In this document: positions 23,323 to 41,027 of the stretch, piece by piece
How the letters are laid out: each line of letters begins with the position of its first letter
Numbering within the stretch: position 1 is the first letter of the stretch
Assembly: GCF_024707545.1 (NCBI RefSeq)
Contig: NZ_CP062229.1
Location: forward strand, 6,553,501-6,617,500
Source: Mesorhizobium onobrychidis
GTDB lineage: Bacteria; Pseudomonadota; Alphaproteobacteria; Rhizobiales; Rhizobiaceae
Length of the DNA stretch: 64,000 nt
Direction of reading: 5' to 3'
Program-made: the position numbers and the translations under genes
Notes under the pieces: model-generated
Databases searched by the model: none
Seen by the model: the letters and a program-made list of their open reading frames with translations, nothing else
Told to the model about the DNA's origin: nothing

Positions 23323-23338
23323 TGTTGACTCTGCGACA
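23323..23338 (+). promoter_or_regulatory. NifA upstream activator sequence
   Basis: The sequence TGTTGACTCTGCGACA fits the NifA site TGT-N10-ACA exactly. It lies about 86-100 bases upstream of the sigma-54 promoter at 23424, the usual distance for NifA enhancers. Another near match (TGTCAGGTTTGTTGA) starts a few bases upstream. Confidence 0.8.
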
Positions 23339-23423
23339 CAGTTGCATTCGTCCCGGCTTCCTGCACTCGCATTCAAGCCTTTGAATATATCTCAAATTGC
23401 GACCCGGGGGCACCTCCTGCGGC

Positions 23424-23438
23424 TGGCACGGTTCTTGC
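23424..23438 (+). promoter_or_regulatory. Sigma-54 (-24/-12) promoter
   Basis: TGGCACGGTTCTTGC is a perfect match to the RpoN consensus TGGCAC-N5-TTGC. The predicted start of transcription is near 23449, about 120 bases before the SelA-like gene. With the NifA site at 23323 it forms a textbook nitrogen-fixation promoter. Confidence 0.9.
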
Positions 23439-23527
23439 GCGCTCCCTCGTCGCAAGGCGGCAGGATCTGCCGGCCGACTACCATGCCGAGTTTGATATTG
23501 CTCGATGGAGCGAAAGATGGAGGTGAC

Positions 23528-23566
23528 ATGAAAGAGGCCGCGCCCACCATTGAAAGGACGGGTTAA
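23528..23566 (+). CDS. 12-codon leader ORF with strong ribosome site
   Basis: ATG 23528 is preceded at ideal spacing by GGAGGTGAC and encodes MKEAAPTIERTG before TAA. The in-frame ATG at 23492 would make 27 residues but has no ribosome site. The stop lies only 5 bases before the ATG of the SelA-like gene, which has only a poorly spaced AAGGGA of its own. The simplest reading is a leader whose translation feeds ribosomes into the next gene. A true peptide product cannot be ruled out. No such leader is known to me. Confidence 0.45.
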   Translation: MKEAAPTIERTG

Positions 23567-23571
23567 GGGAA

Positions 23572-38550: not shown

Positions 38551-39431
38551 CCGATCGTATCGAGTTAGATCCGGATGAGAGCGCCTACAACTTCGCGTAT
38601 CTCGATGAGCAGACAAAACGCATGATCCGGCGCAGCCTACTCAAGGCTCTTTCGATCCCGGGGTATCAAGTGCCCTTCGGTGGACGCGAGATGCCACTTG
38701 CCTATGGGTGGGGAACTGGGGGAATTCAAGTTACCGCAAGCGTCATCGGGCCCGACGACCAGCTTAAGGTGATCGACCAAGGTGCGGACGACACCACCAA
38801 TGCCGTCTCGATAAGGCGATTCTTCGAGATCGTTGGCGACATCCGAACGACGGAACGAACTGCAGATGCCACAGTGATTCAAACTCGCCATCGGATTCCC
38901 GAGGCGCCCCTCAAAGAGGGCCAAGTTCTTGTTTATCAGGTTCCGCAACCGGAGCCATTAAGAAACCTGGAACCCCGCGAGACCGAGACGCGAAAGATGC
39001 ATGCATATTCCGAATACGGTCCCACGCAGGTAACACTCTACGAAGACATAGCTCGCTTCGGCCACATTGCGAAGACCTATGACTACCCCGTCATCGTTAA
39101 TGGTCGACACCTAATGTCACCCAGCCCGATCCCGAAATTTGACAACCCGAAGATGCAGGACTGCCCGGCAATCCAACTTTTTGGAGCTGGTCGAGAGAAG
39201 CGCATATACGCAATCCCACCTTATACCTCGGTGCGCAGCCTGGATTTCGATGATCATCCGTTCGAAGTGCAGACCTGGAAAGGTTGCTGCGCGCTCTGCG
39301 GCTCAACCGCTAGCTATCTGGACGAGGTGATCACTGACGACAAGGGTAGCCGGATGTTCGTCTGCTCGGACACCGACTTCTGCAAAACCCGCCAGGCATC
39401 TGCCCCCCAGGGCTCCGGGCAACGGCGATAG
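38547..39431 (+). CDS. phnJ: C-P lyase catalytic radical-SAM subunit PhnJ
   Basis: 294 residues. This enzyme cleaves the C-P bond by a 4Fe-4S/SAM radical mechanism. The cluster and catalytic cysteines are C248, C251, C273 and C279 (CALCGS ... FVCSDTDFC). Their spacing equals that of E. coli C241, C244, C266 and C272. Other conserved pieces: YNFAYLDEQTKRMIRRSLLK, QVPFGGREMPLAYGWGTGGI and PHMHAYSEYG-like KMHAYSEYGPTQVTLYEDIA. All key residues are present, so it should be active. Confidence 0.97.
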   Translation: MTDRIELDPDESAYNFAYLDEQTKRMIRRSLLKALSIPGYQVPFGGREMPLAYGWGTGGIQVTASVIGPDDQLKVIDQGADDTTNAVSIRRFFEIVGDIRTTERTADATVIQTRHRIPEAPLKEGQVLVYQVPQPEPLRNLEPRETETRKMHAYSEYGPTQVTLYEDIARFGHIAKTYDYPVIVNGRHLMSPSPIPKFDNPKMQDCPAIQLFGAGREKRIYAIPPYTSVRSLDFDDHPFEVQTWKGCCALCGSTASYLDEVITDDKGSRMFVCSDTDFCKTRQASAPQGSGQRR

Positions 39432-39434
39432 GGA

Positions 39435-40238
39435 ATGACGATGGGCGCGATCAACAAGCTTCTCCCAAAACCGCCTCTGCTGCATGTCTGCGGTCTTTCG
39501 AAATCCTATGGGGGTCAAGTCGGCTGCCTCGACATCTCCTTCGCAATCCGACCCGGCGAGGTGCTCGGCATCGTCGGTGAAAGCGGCTCAGGCAAATCGA
39601 CGTTGCTGGCGTGTTTGTCGGGAAGGCTGGAACCGGATGCGGGCGCTATAGTCTACGACGTGCACAACCGCGGACCGATGGATATTCTTGCGTTCTCTGA
39701 GCCGGAGCGGCGCCGGCTCGCGCGCACGGATTGGGGCATTGTCCACCAGAACCCACGCGACGGCTTGCGAATGGACGTTAGCGCAGGTGGTAACGTAGGC
39801 GAGCGGCCGATGGCTATCGGAGCGCGGCACTACGGCAACATTCGAGCCGAAGCACAGGACTGGCTGAGGAAAGTCGAGATCGACATCGAGCGAACCGACG
39901 GTACGCCTAATACCTTTTCCGGTGGCATGCAGCAGCGCCTACAGATCGCTCGCAACCTTGTCACCAAGCCCCGCCTCGTCTTCATGGATGAACCGACCGG
40001 CGGGCTCGACGTTTCTGTGCAGGCCCGACTGCTCGATCTCATGCGCGGCCTCGTACGTGAACTTGGCGTGGCAGTCATCATCGTCACCCACGACCTTGCC
40101 GTAGTGCGGCTCCTCGCCGACCGGTTGATGGTCATGCAGCGCGGCCGCGTCATCGAGGAAGGCCTGACCGACCAGGTCCTCGACGATCCCCATCATCCCT
40201 ATACTCAACTGCTAGTCTCCTCCGTCCTGCAGGTTTGA
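39435..40238 (+). CDS. phnK: C-P lyase ATPase-like subunit PhnK
   Basis: 267 residues. ABC-type ATPase with Walker A GESGSGKSTLLACL, NPRDGLRMDVSAGGNVGERP (PhnK-specific loop), signature FSGGMQQRLQIARNLV and Walker B LVFMDEPTGGLDVSVQARL. PhnK binds the PhnGHIJ core through PhnJ and, with PhnL, uses ATP to remodel the complex; it is not a transporter subunit here. It starts 3 bases after phnJ. Confidence 0.94.
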   Translation: MTMGAINKLLPKPPLLHVCGLSKSYGGQVGCLDISFAIRPGEVLGIVGESGSGKSTLLACLSGRLEPDAGAIVYDVHNRGPMDILAFSEPERRRLARTDWGIVHQNPRDGLRMDVSAGGNVGERPMAIGARHYGNIRAEAQDWLRKVEIDIERTDGTPNTFSGGMQQRLQIARNLVTKPRLVFMDEPTGGLDVSVQARLLDLMRGLVRELGVAVIIVTHDLAVVRLLADRLMVMQRGRVIEEGLTDQVLDDPHHPYTQLLVSSVLQV

Positions 40239-40256
40239 GGCGGCAAGGATATCATC

Positions 40257-41027
40257 ATGACCATTCGCCTGCATGCAAAGGGTCTTACCAAGACCTTCAC
40301 ACTCCACACCCAGGGAGGCATTGTCCTCCCGGTCTTCAAAGACATCGACCTCGCGGTGAAAGCCCGCGAATGCGTGTGCCTGCACGGCCCGTCCGGCGCC
40401 GGCAAGTCGACGCTTCTGCGCTCGCTCTATGCCAATTACAAACCAGATGCCGGACAAATTCTCGTCGAACATCTCGGTGAGACAGTCAATCTGCTTTCTG
40501 CGGAACCCTGGGAAGTCGTGGAAATCCGCCGCCGCACGGTCGGTTACGTTAGTCAGTTCCTGCGTGTTATCCCTCGCGTAACCGCCCTCAATGTCGTTGC
40601 GGAGCCCGCGATCGCCAACGGTATGCCGGCAGACGAGGCCAAAGCGCTCGCAATGACCCTGCTCACTCGCCTGCGCATCCCCGAACGGCTGTGGTCGCTC
40701 GCACCTGCCACCTTCTCCGGCGGCGAACAGCAGCGCGTCAACATCGCCCGCGGTTTCATCGTCGACTACCCAATCCTGCTCCTAGATGAGCCGACTGCAT
40801 CGCTCGATGCCGCCAATCGCGCAACCGTGGTAGACCTCATCAACGAAGCCAAGGCTCGCGGCGCCGCCATCGTCGGCATCTTCCACGATGGAGAGGTTCG
40901 AGATTTCGTCGCGGACCGCCTGTTTGAGGTCCGTGCGATAACGGCCGCGCGAAAGACTATCTCGAACATTGAGGGAGAGCCGGTCGGTCTCAGCATGCGT
41001 TCGCCAGACTCTATTCCGGTACAATGA
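40257..41027 (+). CDS. phnL: C-P lyase ATPase-like subunit PhnL
   Basis: 256 residues. Starts MTIRLHAKGLTKTFTLHTQG. Walker A GPSGAGKSTLLRSLYANYKP, RRRTVGYVSQFLRVIPRVTA, signature FSGGEQQRVNIARGF and Walker B ILLLDEPTASLDAANRATV. Lies 18 bases after phnK and ends the run. The genes that normally follow (phnN, DUF1045/phnO) are missing because an IS91-type remnant begins within 10 bases. PhnL itself appears complete. Confidence 0.94.
   Translation: MTIRLHAKGLTKTFTLHTQGGIVLPVFKDIDLAVKARECVCLHGPSGAGKSTLLRSLYANYKPDAGQILVEHLGETVNLLSAEPWEVVEIRRRTVGYVSQFLRVIPRVTALNVVAEPAIANGMPADEAKALAMTLLTRLRIPERLWSLAPATFSGGEQQRVNIARGFIVDYPILLLDEPTASLDAANRATVVDLINEAKARGAAIVGIFHDGEVRDFVADRLFEVRAITAARKTISNIEGEPVGLSMRSPDSIPVQ

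Follow-up and report, generated by a model that had tools for sequence, protein, structure and literature searches.

Rhizopines, compounds known to derive from inositol, are the usual example of how bacteroids feed their kin. In the mos/moc loci of Sinorhizobium meliloti L5-30 their synthesis in the nodule is controlled by NifA, an aminotransferase takes part in it, and the catabolism genes are linked to the synthesis genes (PMC10107442). We analysed a stretch of 64,000 nucleotides from Mesorhizobium onobrychidis (chromosome C1, positions 6553501-6617500, in a 7.55-Mb genome of two contigs; hereafter the window), which contains an operon headed by a SelA-like gene with a NifA/sigma-54-type promoter and, beside it, an operon for an importer and a carbon-phosphorus (C-P) lyase. 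Together with a phosphoenolpyruvate (PEP) mutase gene elsewhere on the chromosome, these operons appear to share the above features with the mos/moc loci. Unlike them, the core is of the PEP mutase/phosphonate type, the reward would be phosphorus, and the regulator PhnF is far from the rhizopine MocR model (26.4 bits, cut-off 650). We propose, with a probability of roughly 0.55, that bacteroids make and export a phosphonate ester, which their kin re-import and mine for phosphorus. By analogy, the system may work like a rhizopine that carries phosphorus; membership of the rhizopine class is not claimed, because the compound is predicted from genes and these genes point to another class.

The second described relative is the pepM-aatA-asnB group of ICEMlSymR7A in Mesorhizobium loti R7A (PMC3538637), which, like the genes reported here, encodes a PEP mutase, an aminotransferase and an asparagine-synthase-like protein. 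According to that report, pepM::lacZ gave 827 Miller units in 14-day nodules and 7.7 in a nifA2 mutant, aatA and asnB gave 2456 and 862 in bacteroids as compared to 16 and 22 without nifA2, and all three fusions stayed under 20 in broth. Sullivan et al. (2013; PMC3538637) classed the three genes among those without NifA/RpoN promoters, whereas in our set an upstream activator sequence (UAS) and a sigma-54-like element precede aepX in 8/8 Mesorhizobium-type loci. In the main text of that report words beginning with "phospho" occur only twice, and the mentions of rhizopine found there concern fixV, not pepM; the main text of the M. huakuii 7653R bacteroid transcriptome contains no word starting with mutase or phosphomutase. 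In the open-licence PMC literature we found neither a phosphonate rhizopine nor this reading of rhizobial aepX clusters described.

The earlier note had stated that no PEP mutase is present and that a C-P bond would have to come from elsewhere. Both statements are right for the window but not for the strain, because the genome encodes a PEP mutase above the family cut-off (345.6 bits vs. 319.55, genome search) on the same chromosome, at C1:7109229. This gene, aepX, lies 532 kb from the SelA operon, with nodC about 41 kb and nifH 99 kb away. On the evidence of NodC (760.6 bits at C1:7066654) and NifH (C1:7008946-7009770), the genome is that of a nodulating diazotroph. AepX matches the solved PEP mutase structure 1m1b at 1.8e-99 and is followed by genes for an aminotransferase, a nucleotidyltransferase and a CDP-alcohol transferase (CDP-OH_P_transf, PF01066), and then by a convergent asparagine-synthase-like gene. 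The nucleotidyltransferase gave as best structures the nucleotidyl transferase 7whr (1.9e-14), and the CTP:phosphocholine cytidylyltransferase 1jyk (3.9e-14); it also matched 6pd1 (5.4e-9), which we take to be PntC. The CDP-alcohol transferase shows a weak kinship to archaetidylserine and phosphatidylserine synthases. AepX also carries EDKAFPKMNS, in agreement with the motif EDKXXXXXNS that is used as a PEP mutase signature in PMC6697681. The PntC-type activation described there is similar in that the nucleotidyltransferase comes directly after the PEP mutase and the aminotransferase and matches 6pd1; it differs in that the protein here stands alone, is closer to 1jyk, and is followed by a CDP-alcohol transferase.

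The step after PEP mutase may fall to the adjacent aminotransferase; models of phosphonopyruvate decarboxylase (Ppd) remained below cut-off in the genome (best 31.8 bits vs. 312.5). As no decarboxylase came near the cut-off, we discounted a plain 2-aminoethylphosphonate pathway. Rhizobium etli IE4803, where aepX stands beside an annotated phosphonopyruvate decarboxylase gene, may have that type. Also near aepX, a PalA-like phosphonopyruvate hydrolase gene (395 bits, TIGR02321 cut-off 374.4) is clustered with a LysR gene, an aminotransferase gene, an importer and a second phosphodiesterase gene. The hydrolase, aminotransferase and LysR genes resemble palA/palB of Variovorax sp. Pal2, with roles as given in PMC8154272; in contrast to these, the genes here adjoin an importer and a phosphodiesterase gene and are paired with synthesis genes.

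The SelA operon is preceded by a NifA-type UAS (TGT-N10-ACA, TGTTGACTCTGCGACA, 23323..23338, plus strand), which aligns with the UAS of the aepX and nifH promoters of the genome, and by a sigma-54 promoter (TGGCAC-N5-TTGC, -24/-12, TGGCACGGTTCTTGC, 23424..23438, plus strand); both elements stand where the earlier note had read them. Taken singly, neither pattern exceeded chance in the window (5 observed vs. 5.55 expected for the sigma-54 pattern with at most one mismatch, 9 vs. 6.63 for the UAS). The pair with a spacing of 60-90 bp matched 8 times in the whole genome, and the reversed control pattern 0 times. One of the eight pairs is upstream of nifH (7009872), one is the window site and one is upstream of aepX, where the UAS/sigma-54 elements are TGTCGAGTGAGCGACA and TGGCACGACTTTTGA. 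Local alignments, each scored against 100 dinucleotide shuffles, gave z=38 for the window promoter vs. that of aepX, z=33 for aepX vs. the genome's own nifH and z=8 for the window vs. nifH. With a z of 33 against its own nifH, the aepX promoter resembles a copy of the nifH promoter. The asnB-like gene near aepX has its own NifA/sigma-54 site with one mismatch. At the sequence level, then, NifA/sigma-54 composite sites stand before both the SelA operon and aepX, as rhizopine synthesis genes would have them.

For a relaxed search, the composite was defined as an exact UAS and, 40-150 bp away, a sigma-54 element that allowed no more than one mismatch in TGGCAC and took its -12 word from a fixed set. 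It was present within 700 bp of aepX in all eight Mesorhizobium-type loci, namely this genome and seven Mesorhizobium plasmid records; these are not eight independent cases, because they show three promoter types. The probability of such a composite by chance per 700-bp window was 0.175% by shuffling six of the Mesorhizobium-type loci, and 0.7% by counting in real non-Mesorhizobium loci (13 matches in 1.27 Mb, both strands). In five loci it headed 9 of the 126 open reading frames (ORFs) of at least 150 aa: five aepX, a second biosynthetic remnant, nifS, an ATP-binding cassette (ABC) exporter and a P450 gene; PMC3538637 counts nifS and a P450 operon among the targets of NifA. In Mesorhizobium 131-3-5 the order is ABC exporter, fdxB, nifQ, rpoN, peroxiredoxin, P450, ferredoxin, ..., aepX, aminotransferase, ..., asnB, which matches the rpoN2-nifQ surroundings of R7A (PMC3538637), and a UAS with CGGCACGCGCCTTGC lies 144 bp upstream of the aepX match. 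R7A presumably shares this UAS and sigma-54-like sequence before pepM. In the same 131-3-5 locus (L073 1662-3808), a UAS with TGGCGCGGCTTTTGC was also observed upstream of the ABC exporter at the exsA place; exsA of R7A is NifA2-dependent, yet listed without a NifA promoter (PMC3538637). Directly before SelA, the composite is present in the window and in S. numidicum. In S. terangae it lies 678 bp before a methyltransferase-SelA-paralogue run, and in AR10 one composite promoter heads a run of aepX, the aminotransferase, nucleotidyltransferase and CDP-alcohol transferase genes, methyltransferases, an aminotransferase and a major facilitator superfamily (MFS) gene.

The reading frames of both window operons are open, and their gene content agreed with the earlier note, by family matches or position. 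The first gene of the SelA operon encodes a pyridoxal-phosphate (PLP) enzyme of the SelA/DgaE/Cap15 fold (23617..25167, plus strand; motif SGGKYIRGPQ). The ORF opens at 23572, but the ATG at 23617 is the more likely start, as the database protein (P0001) has 516 aa. It is 24-25% identical to DgaE (7lc0) and Cap15 (8t7j), from which it differs by an additional C-terminal all-beta domain (about residues 403-508). Since it missed the cut-offs of the curated families (DgaE equivalog 119.8/600 bits, selA_rel subfamily 110.5/385.3), by these scores the protein shares the SelA/DgaE fold and is not a member of either family. It is followed on the same strand by genes for a class I S-adenosylmethionine-dependent methyltransferase (25172..25954; 91% identical in R. 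mongolense and 63% in S. terangae, at the same place), a 154-aa protein with no Pfam or NCBIfam match (25951..26415; homologue in R. mongolense) and an MFS transporter (26425..27708; PF07690), the putative exporter. The transporter scored 351.3 bits against ArsK (NF033733, cut-off 400). An arsenic role was set aside because this score is below the cut-off and no other arsenic family was the best match of any of the ten window proteins scanned; the genome was not searched for arsenic genes. Many SelA homologues among the protein database matches are from Bradyrhizobium, and a search for related loci gave one. In genome surveys, with the own genome counted and at most three candidates scored per genome, so that the counts are lower bounds, the family was found at strict limits in at least 2 of 394 genomes of the same family (1e-50) and at least 3 of 397 of the same order (1e-45).

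The import operon beside it begins beyond a minus-strand gene for a PhnF-type GntR/UTRA regulator (27733..28539; TIGR02325, 199 bits, cut-off 156.8). On the plus strand, it encodes an Opp/Dpp-type substrate-binding protein (28596..30170; SBP_bac_5, Pfam), two ABC permeases (30182..31120 and 31117..32007) and a fused double ABC ATPase (32008..33882), the last three by domain matches, and then a phosphodiesterase of the alkaline phosphatase superfamily (33854..35143; PF01663, 9.6e-35; 1.1e-6 against the nucleotide pyrophosphatase/phosphodiesterase structure 2gsn), a candidate phosphonate ester hydrolase. The C-P lyase genes continue on this strand with a phnM-type amidohydrolase gene, assigned by its family match (PF01979/PF07969) and position (ORF 35076..36344, likely ATG at 35160), followed by phnG (36317..36838; PF06754), phnH (36835..37443; PF05845), phnI (37444..38550; PF05861) and phnJ (38547..39431; PF06007), which encodes the radical subunit with the C-x2-C...C...C cysteine pattern. 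Two ABC ATPase genes (PF00005), named from gene order, close the operon at the phnK (39435..40238) and phnL (40257..41027) positions. PhnG, H, I and J are all recognisable by family match and PhnM by match and position, and PhnJ has its cysteines.

The connection between the two operons and the PEP mutase core is also visible in other rhizobia. On pCB3126_2 of S. terangae, near rpoN and nifQ, a single 20-kb stretch joins the synthesis core, the SelA run and the import block: it contains aepX with the aminotransferase, nucleotidyltransferase and CDP-alcohol transferase genes, the phosphodiesterase, importer, phnF, MFS, methyltransferase and SelA-like genes, in addition to a truncated SelA and phnM pieces. 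Identities to the window proteins are 58% (SelA), 63% (methyltransferase), 46% (MFS), 55% (PhnF), 58% (substrate-binding protein) and 58% (phosphodiesterase). The earlier note had held that genomes in which the two operons occur independently and never together would speak against a link; in S. terangae at least, they occur together. In R. mongolense the SelA-methyltransferase-small protein-MFS run is 85, 91, 62 and 80% identical to that of the window; it is preceded by aminotransferase pieces and followed by phnF pieces and a different phosphodiesterase (32%). The aepX core is on a separate contig, with another, partial SelA match after it. We fetched 10 of the 15 plasmid records with a SelA match covering at least 80% of the query: in nine, two or more of the four core genes are present, and eight carry aepX. 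The locus of R. jaguaris (L039) has the nucleotidyltransferase and CDP-alcohol transferase genes, with aepX absent from the stretch, and that of Ensifer canadensis (L038) a CDP-alcohol transferase piece only. In genome G499 (contig C7, L056), the four core genes, a SelA gene and a short-chain dehydrogenase/reductase gene stand beside phnG, phnI, phnJ and phnM.

Searches of 72,556 plasmid records (limits 1e-60 for aepX, 1e-40 for the phosphodiesterase and 1e-80 for phosphonopyruvate hydrolase) found aepX on 84, of which 60 were listed. The window-type phosphodiesterase is on 14 records, 10 or 11 of which also hold aepX; in the 10 that are among the listed aepX records, aepX is within 18 kb in eight and 159-168 kb away in two. 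The hydrolase is on 35 records, 14 of them with a listed aepX, always within 34 kb. In R. gallicum IE4872 nifHDKENX, the aepX core, importer, phosphodiesterase, phnF and phnGHIJKML lie within 37 kb, and synthesis genes stand beside degradation genes also on plasmids of S. chiapasense, S. mexicanum, S. fredii 83666, S. meliloti M270 and S. garamanticum. M. loti 582 has a phosphodiesterase gene together with importer, LysR, and PalB- and PalA-like genes, as in our genome. As in rhizopine systems, synthesis and catabolism genes share a replicon, being on the same chromosome here and adjacent in other rhizobia. The operon link and the phosphonate rhizopine-like logic of the earlier note thus find support in the aepX promoter homology, the contiguity in S. 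terangae, the plasmid linkage and the R7A expression data. The genes, promoters, linkage and synteny are read directly from the DNA.

From these genes we infer the compound, all the chemical steps, its export, its uptake by kin and the benefit, as follows. The window would hold the tailoring/export and import/degradation parts, and the C-P-forming part would be that 532 kb away. In nitrogen-fixing bacteroids, NifA and sigma-54 would activate the two operons with homologous promoters. AepX would convert phosphoenolpyruvate into phosphonopyruvate, and the aminotransferase would turn this into an amino-phosphonate, most simply phosphonoalanine, because no phosphonopyruvate decarboxylase was found. 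The phosphocholine-cytidylyltransferase-like enzyme might then form a CMP-phosphonate, from which the CDP-alcohol transferase, with an alcohol, might form a phosphonate ester. Tailoring of the ester may be the work of the SelA-like enzyme and the methyltransferase, and its export that of the MFS protein. Free-living cells would take it up by the Dpp-type importer, the phosphodiesterase would cleave the P-O ester, and either the C-P lyase of the window or the PalB/PalA-like pair near aepX would cut the C-P bond to yield phosphate. PhnF would repress uptake as long as there is neither substrate nor a need for phosphorus.

Several observations weigh against this proposal. Since 532 kb separate them in this genome, the partnership of the SelA operon with aepX rests on the promoter and on other species, and the sequence assigns no specific chemistry to the SelA-like and CDP-alcohol enzymes. 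The composite was found within 700 bp of aepX in none of the 24 other fetched loci, which include one frame-broken copy and Bradyrhizobium sp. 187, and in several non-Mesorhizobium loci a GntR gene adjoins aepX instead. By these counts, the idea that all rhizobial aepX operons are NifA-driven was rejected outside Mesorhizobium. Directly before SelA, the composite is absent in S. terangae and R. mongolense, and the fetched S. terangae stretch contains no intact C-P lyase, only phnM pieces. G499 has no nifH over the cut-off; because it has aepX-SelA and C-P lyase genes, the link of the pathway with nitrogen fixation is not universal. Distant SelA relatives (37-38%) are present in two genomes (G013, G670) without a PEP mutase over the cut-off. 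At the limits used, aepX is missing from at least 3 of the 14 phosphodiesterase records: there is none at 1e-60 on those of M. mediterraneum and of the smaller plasmid of S. chiapasense, two genera that the tally shows to be completely listed, and of the Microvirga and Phyllobacterium records at most one can hold it. The same is true of about 19 to 21 of the 35 hydrolase records. PhnJ is common on plasmids (215 records), and the phnJ of the window is one of two in the genome, the second being at 1.87 Mb. In R7A, pepM, aatA and asnB mutants were fully effective with no symbiotic defect, and the authors considered direct NifA activation of pepM highly unlikely (PMC3538637).

The full effectiveness of the R7A mutants also suits an explanation in which the phosphonate is bioactive, either affecting the plant or serving as an antimetabolite against competitors, with the MFS protein exporting it and so protecting the cell, and the import and C-P lyase genes removing or recycling it. 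The tailoring genes behind the same aepX core vary between strains, PMC6697681 describes phosphonates as natural products of unusual bioactivity, and an operon for a double-glycine-type peptide with a C39 exporter and a NifA-type promoter lies about 2.5 kb from aepX. As an immunity device, however, a dedicated Dpp-type importer combined with a phosphodiesterase and either C-P lyase or the Pal enzymes would be odd; it suggests feeding, so we regard this explanation as unlikely. The weak kinship of the CDP-alcohol transferase to archaetidylserine and phosphatidylserine synthases may instead mean that it uses a lipid alcohol and that in bacteroids the core produces a phosphonolipid or a phosphonoglycan of the cell surface, whose fragments the import genes salvage; most of the phosphonate capacity of bacteria is said to serve the tailoring of cell surfaces (PMC6697681). 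Against this, MFS genes belong to the runs of the window, S. terangae and AR10, and the linkage of importer and phosphodiesterase fits a small soluble ester, which makes a lipid or glycan product improbable. Least probable of all is that the window operons are unrelated, the SelA operon having a separate role and the importer and C-P lyase serving general phosphorus scavenging in poor soils or phosphorus-limited nodules, for although the 532 kb to aepX, the frequency of PhnJ on plasmids and the rise of phosphonate transporter genes in NGR234 bacteroids, which its authors read as phosphorus limitation (PMC3732241), would agree with it, the adjacency is kept in S. terangae at 46-64% protein identity, SelA homologues sit with core genes in other rhizobia, and the window and aepX promoters are homologous. 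Phosphorus limitation was also the authors' reading of phosphonate transport and use genes in R. leguminosarum bacteroids.

If the exchange of a phosphonate ester among kin is correct, a phosphorus-carrying counterpart would widen the rhizopine idea to a limiting nutrient. It would also offer a reason for the strong expression of pepM, aatA and asnB in R7A bacteroids without a fixation defect, and explain why genes for making and for degrading phosphonates are paired on symbiotic plasmids. A broader form of the idea, to which we give slightly less than even odds, is that in nodules the bacteroids of Mesorhizobium and certain other rhizobia produce and export strain-specific phosphonate esters, probably based on phosphonoalanine, as a private phosphorus food for kin equipped with the corresponding importer and phosphodiesterase and with C-P lyase or Pal enzymes, and that these esters form a new rhizopine chemical class. 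The aepX core on a Ti plasmid and other agrobacterial plasmids would then carry the idea to agrobacteria. On the Agrobacterium plasmid pTi Tul003 (L069 12010-21143), the order is GntR, aepX, aminotransferase, cytidylyltransferase, dehydrogenase and CDP-alcohol transferase, followed by ParB-like, ornithine-cyclodeaminase-like, PLP and cysteine-synthase-like genes; comparable aepX matches were observed on other Agrobacterium and R. rhizogenes plasmids.

During the analysis, some further sites and genes were observed. The peptide operon close to aepX (L043 7679-11624, minus strand; C1 about 7102678-7106623), headed by a site resembling the aepX promoter, comprises an ORF of 66 aa, whose leader is by eye of the double-glycine type, and genes for an HlyD protein and an ABC exporter with a C39 peptidase; it may be a bacteriocin-like export operon and may be nodule-induced. 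A UAS and sigma-54-like pair heads a methyltransferase gene with a winged-helix domain, 2.4 kb beyond the phosphonopyruvate hydrolase gene (L044 14457-15937, plus strand; C1 about 7129456-7130936). Two closely similar NifA-type sites (z=33), at C1:6977830 and C1:6992431, head two similar TlpA-like ORFs (by eye) about 15 kb apart. In the window itself, an Rfam scan gave nothing reaching the gathering score. A NiFe-hydrogenase small subunit gene is present on the minus strand at 872-1957, for which reason further hydrogenase genes may sit just beyond the window edge, and a minus-strand ORF of 783 aa at 11505-13856 has no Pfam match. A group II intron reverse transcriptase gene stands beside IS21-type istA/istB at 14552-17804. 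Immediately after the phnL-position gene, integrase and IS91-type transposase pieces occupy 41034-42463, which is likely a mobility border.

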